A stretch of DNA of 9,459 nt from positions 1 through 9,459 of the forward strand of contig WJIO01000336.1 in NCBI GenBank assembly GCA_014730235.1, given 5' to 3'. The notes below the pieces were generated by a model that did no database searches, had not been told where the DNA came from, and was given only the letters and a program-made list of their open reading frames with translations. Of this stretch, positions 482-9,459 are shown in pieces. The translations under genes were made by a program, and so were the position numbers. The DNA is from Candidatus Poribacteria bacterium (lineage in GTDB: Bacteria; Poribacteria; DTPJ01; WJIO01). Position 1 is the stretch's first letter, and each line of letters opens with the position of its first letter.

Positions 482-2251
482 TTATCTTTTTAATATCATC
501 TTGGCAGTTTGTTGGAAATCTCTGCCAATTATCCGGCAAAAATAGATGCCTGATGATACTTTCTCACCTTTGTCATTTTTTCCATCCCAATATGCTGCAA
601 GCTCTTTAGAAGCATATAATCCTGGAAATTTAAATCCCATATTCATAGAACGTACCAGGCATCCAGAGGAATCATATATGTTTATTGTAATATTACTTTG
701 CTCAGCCAATTGGTATGGAATCCAGGTTTCAGGATTAAATGGGTTGGGATAATTGGGTAAGAGGCGAGATTTATATTTTTTATCATAATCAGTATAAGAT
801 TTAAAATCTTTATTACCTGATATGGGGTTTGCTTTAGAATCATCAACAGACCAAAAACTTTCTTCTGCATTTATAACCTGGTTTGCCTTAATATTTGTCA
901 ATTTTGTAACTATACCTGATGGCCAGAATATATTTAATACATTGATAAAATCATTATTTCCCAGGCCAAATTCAACAACGGGGCTATTTTGTGAACCATA
1001 TCCAGAACCCCTGGTTGTCTCTCTGATCAAATTAATTCCACCGACGGATAAATTTAAACGGGTACCAATACCATCTCTGTTGCTTGAAGTACCTGTGAGT
1101 TTTATATACAGCCAGTTATTATCAGAACCATTATTCAGGTATAATTTATTGGCTTTGGTTGTGTAGGTTGTATATAGATCCAGATCACCATCGCTGTCAT
1201 AATCACTAAAAATAGCACTCCAGCTATTACCAAAGTCACCTAAACCGACTTCATGAGTCACTTCTTCAAAGGAGCCATCACCTTTATTATGAAACATGAC
1301 AGACCAGCCGTTCCATACTGCTAGGTATAAGTCAAGATGACCATCATTATCGTAATCACCAAAGGCAGGAGTGCTTTCCTTTCCTATATAGCTTATACCA
1401 AGTTCTGGGGCAACGTTTGTGAAAGTTCCATCGTTTTCATTGCGATACAGATAAACTTCCCTGCCTCCATCTACACATAAATCCAGGTCACCGTCGTTAT
1501 CATAATCGGCAAAAGCCGCTCCTGTACTTATATCGGGAATATCCACACCTGCATCTTCTGCTACGTCCTTAAATCCAAAACTATCATTGCGGTATAAAAG
1601 GTTTGACTCACCTTTATTAGTTACATATAAATCCATATCGCCGTCATTGTCATAATCAGCCCAGGTTCCACATCGCCCATTACCAGGATGCGCTACGTTC
1701 ATCTCCTGAGCTACATCTTCAAAGCTTTTTCCGCTTCTGTTTTTGTAAAGTATATTCGGTGCAGATTCGTTTGTTACATAAATATCCAGAAAGCTATCGT
1801 TATTAAAATCGGCAAAAGCCGCGCTTCTACCCCTGTTTGGGTTATTGATTCTTACATCCCTTGTAGCATCCCGGAATATTCCTGCACCTTCGTTTTGAAA
1901 GAATATATCCCAGCCATCGTTTACAGGTATATAAAGGTCTGGATCACCGTCGTTATCATAATCACCAAATACAGCACCAACTCCATCACCTTTTACAAAT
2001 ATACCGGCTTCTATAGTAGCATCGCTGAAAGTACCATCTCCGTTGTTGCGATATAGTATATCATGGGGATCGGCAGATACATAAAGATCCAGATCACCGT
2101 CCACATCATAATCAACAAATGCAAGTCCATTGCCCACTTCGGCTCCGGGAACATCTGCTTCCTCAGTGAAATCGGTGAAAGTTGCGCATATTCCGTATGA
2201 TATTCCCATTAAAAAAAATGGGATAATCATTATTAAAAACTTCTTAAACAT
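482..2251 (-). CDS. Secreted FG-GAP/VCBS beta-propeller protein with ASPIC/UnbV domain and C-terminal FlgD-like sorting tag
   Basis: The protein has 589 residues. A signal peptide covers about 1-23 (MFKKFLIMIIPFFLMGISYG). Seven repeats about 50 residues apart each carry an acidic DxDxDGD-type calcium-binding loop followed by LDLYV, at about 47-55, 97-105, 148-156, 199-207, 249-257, 299-307 and 350-358. This fits a seven-bladed FG-GAP/VCBS propeller. The third loop (DFNNDSFLD) is degenerate. Residues about 390-462 match ASPIC/UnbV (GIGTRLNLSVGG, GSGYGSQNS, FGLG, WPSG). Residues 497-589 start with NYPNPFNPETWIPYQLA and continue as a FlgD-like beta domain (AAYWDGKND, VSSGIYFCRI) ending in KMILKR, which resembles tags for secretion or surface anchoring. 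The role is probably an extracellular calcium-stabilised binding protein; the ligand is unknown. The start is supported by GGTGAT 8 bases upstream (2260-2265) and a good promoter. Cys22 is not in a lipobox, so it is not called a lipoprotein. Confidence 0.93.
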   Translation of the reverse strand: MFKKFLIMIIPFFLMGISYGICATFTDFTEEADVPGAEVGNGLAFVDYDVDGDLDLYVSADPHDILYRNNGDGTFSDATIEAGIFVKGDGVGAVFGDYDNDGDPDLYIPVNDGWDIFFQNEGAGIFRDATRDVRINNPNRGRSAAFADFNNDSFLDIYVTNESAPNILYKNRSGKSFEDVAQEMNVAHPGNGRCGTWADYDNDGDMDLYVTNKGESNLLYRNDSFGFKDVAEDAGVDIPDISTGAAFADYDNDGDLDLCVDGGREVYLYRNENDGTFTNVAPELGISYIGKESTPAFGDYDNDGHLDLYLAVWNGWSVMFHNKGDGSFEEVTHEVGLGDFGNSWSAIFSDYDSDGDLDLYTTYTTKANKLYLNNGSDNNWLYIKLTGTSSNRDGIGTRLNLSVGGINLIRETTRGSGYGSQNSPVVEFGLGNNDFINVLNIFWPSGIVTKLTNIKANQVINAEESFWSVDDSKANPISGNKDFKSYTDYDKKYKSRLLPNYPNPFNPETWIPYQLAEQSNITINIYDSSGCLVRSMNMGFKFPGLYASKELAAYWDGKNDKGEKVSSGIYFCRIIGRDFQQTAKMILKR

Positions 2252-2300: not shown

Positions 2301-2329
2301 AATATAGCACTTATGGTTTCTTTGGTCAA
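2301..2329 (-). promoter_or_regulatory. Sigma70-like promoter for the two secreted-protein genes
   Basis: Read on the minus strand, TTGACC (2329-2324) is separated by exactly 17 bases from TATATT (2306-2301). Each hexamer matches the consensus at 5 of 6 positions. Transcription would start near 2294, giving a leader of about 43 bases before the ATG at 2251. The -35 box lies only 23 bases from the left end of the foldback element. Confidence 0.65.
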
Positions 2330-2352: not shown

Positions 2353-2376
2353 GAACCTGTCCCAAATTAGTAGGTT
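2353..2376 (+). repeat. Left terminal inverted repeat, 24 bp
   Basis: This is the perfect reverse complement of 2611-2634. Its outer 13 bases (2353-2365) also pair with 2375-2387, so the left end alone folds into a 13-bp hairpin with a 9-base loop. Confidence 0.9.
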
Positions 2377-2395
2377 GGGACAGGTTCCGTTTTTA
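2353..2395 (+). terminator. Terminator-like stem-loop at left end of the element
   Basis: GAACCTGTCCCAA (2353-2365) pairs perfectly with TTGGGACAGGTTC (2375-2387) around the loop ATTAGTAGG. It is followed by CCG and a run of five T (2390-2394). On the plus strand this has the form of an intrinsic terminator. No plus-strand gene ends upstream, since the neighbouring gene reads away to the left. Any effect would be to block transcription entering the element from its left side, or the fold may simply be part of the mobile end. Confidence 0.35.
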
Positions 2396-2426
2396 CCAAG
2401 CATAAATTTTATGTCCGTGAAAACTT

Positions 2427-2548
2427 TGGCTCTTCCGGCTTGAGTGGGATAAAGATAAGAAACTTCTTTATGCTGTCATTCCTGCGAAAACAGGAATGAC
2501 AAGCTGAGAGAATTTTCAATTATAACCACACTGAACCCGGAAGAACCA
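2427..2548. repeat. Inner inverted repeat arms of the element
   Basis: TGGCTCTTCCGG (2427-2438) pairs with CCGGAAGAACCA (2537-2548) at 11 of 12 positions. The midpoint is 2487.5, the same as that of the central hairpin, so arms and hairpin form one nested fold. Confidence 0.6.
2475..2500. repeat. Central palindromic hairpin
   Basis: GTCATTCCTG and CAGGAATGAC form a perfect 10-bp stem around CGAAAA. One further T-A pair (2474/2501) and a GCT/AGC extension with a bulged A are possible. The sequence resembles the widespread GTCATTCC(C/T)GCGAAA-type REP-like palindromes found between genes in many bacteria. Confidence 0.75.
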
Positions 2549-2580
2549 GAAAATATAGTCATAATTAATTTAAAGGCTTA

Positions 2581-2601
2581 TCAGGAGCTTCGCCCTCCTG
2601 A
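2581..2601. repeat. Small hairpin near right end of the element
   Basis: TCAGGAG (2581-2587) pairs with CTCCTGA (2595-2601) around the loop CTTCGCC. The stem is 7 bp and perfect. It lies 9 bases inside the right terminal repeat. Confidence 0.6.
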
Positions 2602-2610
2602 ATTGTGAAT

Positions 2611-2634
2611 AACCTACTAATTTGGGACAGGTTC
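2611..2634 (-). repeat. Right terminal inverted repeat, 24 bp
   Basis: This is the exact reverse complement of 2353-2376. Unlike the left end it has no adjacent partner for TTGGGACAGGTTC, so the two ends are identical in the repeat but differ in local folding. Confidence 0.9.
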
Positions 2635-2649
2635 GAGCAGGATGAATAC

Positions 2650-2678
2650 TTGAAATGAATACAGAAATAAGGTAATAT
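2650..2678 (+). promoter_or_regulatory. Possible promoter for the methyltransferase gene
   Basis: TTGAAA (2650-2655) is followed after 17 bases by TAATAT (2673-2678). The -35 matches 5 of 6 and the -10 matches 4 of 6 consensus positions. It lies just outside the right end of the foldback element and about 50 bases before the ATG at 2727. The surrounding DNA is very AT-rich, so chance matches are likely. Confidence 0.4.
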
Positions 2679-2726: not shown

Positions 2727-3521
2727 ATGATTCACAAAAATATTATCAATACATACAGTGATTTAGCCCGATCAGGTAAATTTCCTGATGATACATATCT
2801 TCATAGAGATTTACTGAAGCTGATAAAAGACAGAGTTGGGAATACAGATCGGCTTAATATTTTGGATGTAGGTAGCGGCGCTGGTTACTTTGGTCTTAAC
2901 CTTACCCAAATGGAACATAATGTAACAATGATTGACCCATCTTATTCTGCTTTGCGTTTGGCCGGAAAGCGGGTTAAATATAGTAATATAAATTCAAAGG
3001 TAAATATAGTTGTGGGTGATGGGGAAATGTTACCTTTTACAAAGGATAAATTTGATATTATTGTTTGTATCTTTGTGTTTTCCCATCTTGAATCACCATC
3101 TAAAGCTTTATCAGAAATTGCCAGGGTTTTATGTAAAAACAGTAAAGCCTTAATATCCTTTGAGAATAAATTATGGCATGTGATTTCCAATTCTCTGAAA
3201 GAGGATTATAAACAGGCTTTTTCTCTGCTTCTTAAAGATAAACCTGCCATAAAAGCCTATGATATTTTACCACCAGTAAAGCTTTATACACTTTCAGAAA
3301 TACAGGAGATGTGCAATTCCTGCGGTCTGGATATTATTTCTGTATCAGGTTTAAGATACCTGACAGCCTTTCAGGAAGTGTTAAAAGGCATAGGAACTAC
3401 AGACGCTGAAAAGATACTTATATCAGATAAAAATGCCGGTGATCTGGAAAAAATATTATCTGATAATAAAGATTTTTTGCAAATAGCGCGTCATTTTTTA
3501 GTGGAGTGTTCGCCGGTTTAG
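2727..3521 (+). CDS. SAM-dependent methyltransferase, class I (UbiE/Methyltransf_11 type)
   Basis: The 264-residue protein has a Rossmann-like methyltransferase core. Motif I is ILDVGSGAGYFG (45-56), which binds the SAM methionine and adenosine side. Asp70 in TMIDPS is the usual acidic residue that contacts the ribose. GDGEMLPF (97-104) is motif II, FDIIVCIFVFSHLESP (109-124) motif III, and ALSEIARVLCKNSKALISF (127-145) the post-motif. The C-terminal part (about 150-264) is a variable cap that probably sets substrate choice and gives no further clue. Small molecules, quinones, sugars or lipids are all possible. The start is fixed because an in-frame TAA (2724-2726) directly precedes the ATG; no good ribosome-binding site is visible. 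It is separated by 120 bases and a promoter from the next gene, so it is probably its own unit. Confidence 0.85.
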   Translation: MIHKNIINTYSDLARSGKFPDDTYLHRDLLKLIKDRVGNTDRLNILDVGSGAGYFGLNLTQMEHNVTMIDPSYSALRLAGKRVKYSNINSKVNIVVGDGEMLPFTKDKFDIIVCIFVFSHLESPSKALSEIARVLCKNSKALISFENKLWHVISNSLKEDYKQAFSLLLKDKPAIKAYDILPPVKLYTLSEIQEMCNSCGLDIISVSGLRYLTAFQEVLKGIGTTDAEKILISDKNAGDLEKILSDNKDFLQIARHFLVECSPV

Positions 3522-8236: not shown

Positions 8237-9459
8237 ATGACTATAGAGGAAAAGAAAGACCGTGAAATAGTTCGTAATTTAGCCGCTCAGATCGTGGAAC
8301 TCGCAGAAAGTGATGAATATGAGAAGCGAAGAAAAAGATGGCGGGATGTAAATGCTTTAAGGAAACCTGATCGTTATCCGGTATGGTGCAGGCCTGTGGG
8401 TTGCTGGCCTGAACTTCTTCCGGAAGGAGATCTTGAGTGTAAAGATTCATTTTACCGTAATATGGAAAGGTCTATGCGTCGGAATCTGATTAAACATTCC
8501 ATAGGTGATGATACAATATTTGAACCCTGGTGGGGTGTTGGTGCAGCCTTTGACCGAGATACAGCTGATGTCTGGGGGGTGCCTATTAAACACACTCCAG
8601 CACCTACAGCAGGAGGGGCGTGGAAGTATGATCCCCCATTGAAAACAGAAGCGGATTTTGACCGACTCACTATACCTACCTATACATACAACGAGGAGAG
8701 GACAAAGCGTTCCCTGGAACGTATGCAGGATGTCCTGGGGGATGTTATGGAAGTTCGTCTGACTTGTGGAGTTCCTTTAGGGGCAGGCCTGGGTGGAACA
8801 GCGGCTTATCTTCGAGGGCTTGAACAGCTAATGTATGATATGGTTGACCGGCCTGATCTGGTTCATCGTCTTATGTCCCATCTACAGAAAGGTGTGTTAA
8901 AAGCTCAAACAACTCTGGAAGAAAGCGGTCTGCTTACTTTAAATAATAAAGGCCCTATGTTTTGCAGCGATCCGCCAAGGGAAGACGCGAGGCCAGGCAA
9001 TATAAAGCTTAACGATCTATGGGGACACACCGAAAGCCAGGAATTCCAGGAAGTCTCACCGGCTATGTGGCAGAAATTCTTGCTGGAATACCAGAAGCCT
9101 ATACTTTCCCGATACTGGCTTTCAAGTTATGGGTGCTGTGAAGACTTAACTCATAAGATTGATGGTGTTTTAAGCATACCCAATCTGAGGATTTTCGTCT
9201 GTTCCGCATGGACTGACCTTCAGAAAGTGGTTGACAAGGTAGGAAAAAATTATACAATTATGTGGCGGGAAAAGGCTTCAGCTATTGTTTTCCCTGACAG
9301 CATCAAACCTATTCGGGAAAATCAGGAGCAGGCCATGAAGATCGCCAGTGGGTGTTATGTCCAGATAGTTTTGCGGGAGTTGCAGACTCTGGATGGTAAA
9401 CCCAATAGACTTAAGGAATGGGCTGACAGCGCAAAAGAGGTAGCTGCTAAGTATACTTA
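8237..9459 (+). CDS. URO-D superfamily (uroporphyrinogen decarboxylase/corrinoid methyltransferase-like) protein, 3' end at window edge
   Basis: The frame from ATG 8237 is open for 407 codons and then shows TA as the last two bases, so the stop may be the very next codon. AGGAG (8222-8226) lies 10 bases upstream. Visible landmarks are a charged helical N-terminus (about 1-38), RKPDRYPVWCRPVGCWPELL (42-61), IFEPWWGVGAAF (94-105), DVWGVP (111-116), the middle TIM-barrel-like strands VRLTCGVPLGAG (173-184), YGCCEDL (298-304), IPNLRIFVCSAWTDL (314-328) and a C-terminal ELQTLDGKPNRLKEWADSAKEVA helix region. The pattern recalls the URO-D superfamily as it occurs in Planctomycetes and Poribacteria, where many copies exist outside heme synthesis. 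Relatives such as MtaA/MtbA move methyl groups from methyl-cobamide. The Cys pair at 300-301 could bind metal (inference). It is not a HemE orthologue by these motifs. Substrate unknown. Confidence 0.65.
   Translation, partial: MTIEEKKDREIVRNLAAQIVELAESDEYEKRRKRWRDVNALRKPDRYPVWCRPVGCWPELLPEGDLECKDSFYRNMERSMRRNLIKHSIGDDTIFEPWWGVGAAFDRDTADVWGVPIKHTPAPTAGGAWKYDPPLKTEADFDRLTIPTYTYNEERTKRSLERMQDVLGDVMEVRLTCGVPLGAGLGGTAAYLRGLEQLMYDMVDRPDLVHRLMSHLQKGVLKAQTTLEESGLLTLNNKGPMFCSDPPREDARPGNIKLNDLWGHTESQEFQEVSPAMWQKFLLEYQKPILSRYWLSSYGCCEDLTHKIDGVLSIPNLRIFVCSAWTDLQKVVDKVGKNYTIMWREKASAIVFPDSIKPIRENQEQAMKIASGCYVQIVLRELQTLDGKPNRLKEWADSAKEVAAKYT

Follow-up and report, generated by a model that had tools for sequence, protein, structure and literature searches.

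The foldback region at positions 2353-2634 of the window (the whole 9,459-nt stretch of Candidatus Poribacteria DNA analysed here, contig WJIO01000336.1) is, as read from its sequence, a mosaic of three non-autonomous repeat families, called here Y, X and Z, and not one MITE. It is probably a rearranged pile-up of non-autonomous derivatives, in which X and Y are promoter-targeting MITEs of ISLre2/ISKra4 type and Z is a separate, ISL3-like MITE. X and Y ends lie at a fixed distance upstream of predicted sigma70-type promoters, 9-bp target duplications flank many X copies and one Y copy, and an intact insertion sequence (IS) with X-like ends is present in the same genome. The host genome is a draft assembly of 5.53 Mb in 451 contigs with an estimated contamination of 4.8%, and the repeat families were sorted from 1.34 Mb of it (about a quarter), on contigs partly picked for carrying repeats.

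The foldback and its parts

The region sits in the spacer between two divergent genes, one for an FG-GAP protein and one for a methyltransferase (Table 1). Its arms, 2353-2376 and 2611-2634, form a perfect 24-nt inverted repeat, as the first-pass annotation had reported; the 282 bp given there as the interior are the whole region, and 234 nt separate the arms. The same annotation described nested inverted repeats. These are present, and region 2353-2634 folds with a DNA MFE of -61.4 kcal/mol (z -8.85 versus dinucleotide shuffles), but they prove to be a separate high-copy 120-bp palindrome (2428-2547) and one arm of a third repeat family. The left arm also belongs to a 35-bp foldback (2353-2387; 13-nt arms, 9-nt loop), a feature that had been missed.

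From left to right, the window carries the left Y palindrome, 8 nt, the left arm of an X-Z element, Z, 24 bases, and the right 63 bp of Y. The right X arm is absent from the window, and no partner copy of the presumed X target CCGTTTTTA was found on the right side. There is no target duplication around the 24-bp end pair, as had been noted at first pass. When searched against the genome, the whole 282 bp matched once and the inner part dozens of times, and no second copy of the whole was found among the 40 scored of 874 first-look candidates.

Searches of the window for RNA families and for tRNAs gave no match. The last open reading frame (ORF), at 8237-9457, is incomplete (at least 407 aa) and has no Pfam match at E 0.001. 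Positions 2649-2682, which hold the predicted methyltransferase promoter, match the 5' end region of an IS3-family element at C45 (85% identity over 34 bp); judged by this similarity, the predicted promoter may be an IS3 end remnant.

Table 1. Features of region 2353-2634 and its surroundings (window coordinates)
Feature	Position	Strand	Remarks
FG-GAP/ASPIC-UnbV repeat protein gene, secretion-tail-like C-terminus	482..2251	-	Neighbour of region 2353-2634
Promoter-like site toward FG-GAP gene: TTGACC (2324-2329), 17 nt, TATATT (2301-2306)	2301..2329	-	Predicted; 23 nt beyond left Y end
Left Y end, 24-bp inverted repeat	2353..2376	-	Identical 24-mer at C339
Y palindrome, 35 bp, arms 2353-2365 and 2375-2387	2353..2387	.	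Similar stand-alone palindromes at C218 and C264
Nine bases CCGTTTTTA adjoining X end, presumed X target sequence	2387..2395	+	Inferred from 9-bp duplications of complete X elements
X element left arm, CCAAGCATAAATTTTATGTCCGTGAAAACTTT	2396..2427	+	Repeat-family match
Family Z palindromic MITE, 120 bp	2428..2547	.	835 end matches genome-wide
Junction between Z and right Y part, no repeat match	2548..2571	.	
Right part of Y element, 63 bp	2572..2634	+	90% identity to C339 Y element, 84% to C30
Right Y end, 24-bp inverted repeat	2611..2634	+	Reverse complement of left end
Promoter-like site toward methyltransferase gene: TTGAAA (2650-2655), 17 nt, TAATAT (2673-2678)	2650..2678	+	Predicted; 15 nt beyond right Y end
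Class I methyltransferase gene	2727..3521	+	Neighbour of region 2353-2634

Three dispersed repeat families

The 24-bp Y end recurs at 18 genomic places at up to 3 mismatches, with varied flanks and none for a reversed control pattern. A 132-bp Y element at C339, without an intact X-Z insert, has a left end identical to the window's, and its right 63 bp are 90% identical. Other copies range from short palindromes without interior (C218, C264 and C306) to a 500-bp element at C164, which has 166 bp in common at 87% with a relic at C41, including an ORF remnant. At C191 a Z element lies inside a Y relic, at a place that is without Z in C41 and C164. A perfect 9-bp flanking repeat was found at the short C306 element, the sole case among six Y pairs; the other complete pairs, that of the window included, have no 9-bp duplication.

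The genome portion read yielded no autonomous Y element. The Y relic ORF matched no family profile and no intact relative of it was found, the relic protein had only a chance match among relatives and none in plasmids, and the exact Y-end pattern was absent from the GTDB contigs and viral contigs searched. IS3 was considered as the source of Y and rejected: the ends of the IS3 copies seem to differ from those of Y, and the Y relic at C41 apparently gained its IS3 stretch by a secondary fusion. Y was presumably moved by the same class of transposase as X.

Family X has ends of the form CCAAGCATAAA(A/T)TTTATG, and 10 of its 18 complete copies are flanked by a 9-bp duplication (at least 8 of 9 bases identical), against 0.62 expected. 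Z sits in many X copies at one fixed position, about 32 bp in from the X end, which means that composites of X and Z have spread. An intact IS of 1509 bp at C354 has X-like ends (up to 3 mismatches to the X consensus) and a perfect 9-bp duplication. Its 442-aa, ISKra4/ISLre2-like transposase scores 152.9 bits against ISKra4 (curated cut-off 205) and 144.5 bits against ISLre2, below the cut-off in both cases, and matches Pfam UPF0236 above cut-off. There is no clear promoter beside this IS. Neither the X-end pattern nor the X transposase was found in the viral contigs searched.

A second IS, at C264 (L081 827-2262, with 18-bp ends GAGTGCGATTTAAAATTG), belongs to the ISKra4 family with a score of 218 bits, above the curated cut-off. 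It lies between divergent predicted TTGACA promoters, at distances of 14 and 16 nt from its ends, and adjoins an apparent cobalamin-riboswitch-like leader. At L110 (18216-18421), a Z core is bounded by a Y end and, on the opposite side, by an X end, with flanks that match at about 7 of 9 positions by eye; one possibility is a hybrid element whose unlike ends were mobilised together.

The 120-bp palindrome Z has ends GGYTCTTCCGGGTTYAGTGTGG, which occur at 419 + 416 = 835 places genome-wide at up to 3 mismatches, with none for the reversed control. Perfect 8-bp direct repeats flank 42 of 116 complete copies, against 0.59 expected from shuffled pairs, and these target duplications are AT-rich, roughly AAATATTT. 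The 8-bp AT-rich duplications are a likeness to the ISL3 family, as are the Z ends GGYTCTTCCGGG, which look like those found next to ISL3 transposase fragments in the same assembly (GGTTCATCCGG); Z differs from that family in being a gene-less palindrome. The fragments, with similar but not identical ends, are at C342 and C391 of this draft assembly (estimated contamination 4.8%), and the genome portion read held no complete ISL3 element whose ends are identical to those of Z. A TAATCGTTAAAAA-like sequence recurs next to several Z copies (for example L074 465, L068 13668 and L184 275); it might be a further small repeat, or else a target that Z prefers.

Distance from element ends to predicted promoters

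The promoter spacing was first noticed when reading outward from Y ends and was then tested on the same sample, with controls. Promoters were predicted with a simple sigma70 matrix of textbook E. coli frequencies. X and Y ends lie 15-17 bp upstream of sigma70-type -35 boxes, whereas Z ends and random intergenic positions do not. A promoter-like site scoring at least 9 lies no more than 60 nt away from 38% of the X ends and 60% of the Y ends; the share is 4% both for Z ends and for random intergenic positions. The gap to these sites peaks at 15-16 for X and 16-17 for Y. With a score of at least 7 and a gap of 13-17, the counts are 33/112 for X and 12/30 for Y, against 4/254 for Z and 36/3000 for random junctions. 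Both shares, for X and for Y, lie above the 20% of sites with a promoter 13-17 bp from the end that PMC3942029 took as its threshold.

Counted without the matrix, the tetramer TTGA stands at gap 16 from 20 of 112 X ends (binomial P 1e-23) and 7 of 30 Y ends, over a background of 0.6%. TATAAT-like boxes peak at gap 39, matching the requirement for a 17-nt spacer. A k-mer count upstream of 134 promoter-like sites, in which X was not named, returned the X end at this position. Twelve of the 18 complete X elements have a promoter at gap 14-17 on at least one side; among the 10 whose duplication is intact, the number is 8. Ends that face a promoter are followed by an ORF start 45-250 nt further on in 22/32 cases for X and 10/12 for Y; for the other ends, the figures are 18/51 and 6/13.

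In the window, the gaps from the Y ends to promoter-like sites are 15 on the methyltransferase side and 23 on the FG-GAP side. A layout of Y and X like that of the window occurs at L104, where X is complete and flanked by a perfect 9-bp duplication, and where a promoter lies 16 nt past the far X end, so X and Y appear to aim at one spot. In five places X adjoins a Y end; the idea that X seeks out hairpins there was rejected, a shared promoter target being the better explanation. Plasmid copies of ISKra4 (cyanobacterial and other) have 9-bp duplications at several sites, and no clear spacing was seen by eye among the few read; the rule is thus not general in the ISKra4 family.

Probable assembly of the mosaic and comparison with known systems

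How would such a foldback arise? X and Y would be MITEs derived from Mutator-like DDE elements (ISLre2/ISKra4 type). A transposase acting in trans would insert them some 16 bp upstream of sigma70-type promoters and duplicate 9 bp of the target, as is seen at X and at a single Y copy. Z, a separate ISL3-like 120-bp MITE, would enter AT-rich 8-mers. In the order of events that we infer, promoter-targeting elements would have entered the divergent promoter region one after another, and the window's X-Z element would have ended up beside the 35-bp Y palindrome. Recombination or deletion would then have taken away the right half of the X-Z element and with it the right X arm, joining Z to the right Y part, so that two matching Y ends remain with no target duplication around them. 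Nested insertions of this kind would account for the foldback puzzle. The first-pass annotation had taken the missing duplication as a hint of a mechanism other than DDE transposition; a rearrangement fits it, and elsewhere X and the C306 Y copy have 9-bp and Z has 8-bp duplications.

Some observations sit less easily with this reading. No autonomous element of Y was found in the portion read, its relic ORF fits no family profile, its complete pairs other than C306 are without duplications, and the left gap of the window, at 23, falls outside 15-17. The intact IS with X-like ends has no clear promoter alongside, and its transposase stays under the curated ISKra4 cut-off. In addition, the promoters are predicted and the 1.34 Mb read were partly chosen for their repeats.

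Could the 24-bp Y motif be a transcriptional activator binding site, centred near -64, instead of a transposon end? Outward-facing pairs would then mark divergent promoters, and the window would hold an operator pair split by MITEs. The spacing of 16-17 nt to the -35 box is constant, promoter-like sites flank both sides of most complete Y pairs, and partnerless single Y motifs with a promoter exist (L120; L078 at 3701). However, copies at several loci remain similar inside the element, beyond the motif (over 63 bp for the window against C339 and C30, over 166 bp for C41 against C164), and one Y copy has a perfect 9-bp flanking duplication. The equal spacing in X, which is clearly a transposon, and the two-sided promoters also reported for symmetric-ended ISKra4 elements (PMC3942029) further make an activator site unlikely.

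Alternatively, X and Y might insert anywhere between genes and be kept only at one helical phase upstream of a promoter, where they would raise or preserve expression. A benefit of insertion at this position is conceivable, and X and Y elements are mostly intergenic, but Z, which is as dense and as intergenic, shows no spacing. Younger X copies, those with intact duplications, show it as strongly (8/10), and targeting is the published reading for this transposase group (PMC3942029). Retention by selection is quite improbable on these grounds, and the insertions are presumably targeted rather than selected.

The first-pass annotation had favoured a MITE. Its ends do come from a dispersed non-autonomous family, so any mobilisation would be in trans, but the 282 bp are not one mobile unit, since the pieces of three families are joined in it and no second copy was found. 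Movement of the whole by a DDE transposase in trans, for which the match of the perfect 24-bp ends to a dispersed end family might speak, is very doubtful given the lack of a second copy and of a target duplication, and an interior built from parts of other mobile families. A REP/RAYT element moved by an IS200-like single-strand process, also raised at first pass, is scarcely credible: the 35-bp foldback is superficially like a REP hairpin, but the one Y1_Tnp match in the genome, at C236, has no visible link to the Y repeats, and the associated families carry DDE-type target duplications.

Returning to a pile-up of promoter-targeting MITEs, the insertion rule itself is already published. Guerillot et al. 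2014 (PMC3942029) reported that TnGBS/ISLre2 elements, and some members of the ISKra4 group, insert 15-17 bp upstream of the -35 region in sigmaA promoters, with duplications of 8 or 9 bp in TnGBS/ISLre2 and ISKra4 elements and with promoters on both sides of symmetric-ended elements, ISKra4 among them; contact with the RNA polymerase initiation complex was proposed, by analogy with yeast Ty3. In a large survey (PMC9208149), ISLre2 and ISKra4 favour positions 50-250 bp from the neighbouring gene. What is new here is the occurrence of the rule in high-copy, transposase-less elements; a partial literature search found no paper on promoter-targeting MITEs of the ISLre2/ISKra4 group. These MITE-sized relatives of ISKra4/ISLre2 elements are numerous enough for the insertion rule to be read within one genome, and their many natural sites offer material on how the transposase finds promoters and on whether insertions alter expression. 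More tentatively, transposase-less promoter-targeting derivatives might occupy a sizeable share of the host's promoters, layered more than once at a given promoter and with the ends of two families mixed, as mobile regulatory DNA upstream of promoters.

The nearest known systems are the ISKra4 group (p-MULT 4) and ISLre2/TnGBS (p-MULT 3) of PMC3942029, which share with X and Y the position 15-17 bp upstream of the -35 box, the 8-9 bp duplications (for Y, at one copy) and symmetric ends of 18-39 bp, and the intact IS found here combines X-like ends with such a transposase. Unlike those elements, X and Y are short and transposase-less, many of their copies contain Z, and they lie layered at shared promoters; the transposase of X stays under both curated cut-offs, and Y ends start with G or A, whereas the group is reported with a terminal C. 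Prokaryotic MITEs with regulatory effects and mosaic TIME elements (PMC10969869; PMC4133298) are likewise miniature and form composite and mosaic structures, and the MITEs affect nearby promoters. TIMEs, however, are Tn3-derived, with 38-bp ends and 5-6 bp duplications, and the promoter effects of the reviewed MITEs are mostly due to promoters that the MITE itself carries, rather than to its insertion at a set distance upstream of a host promoter.
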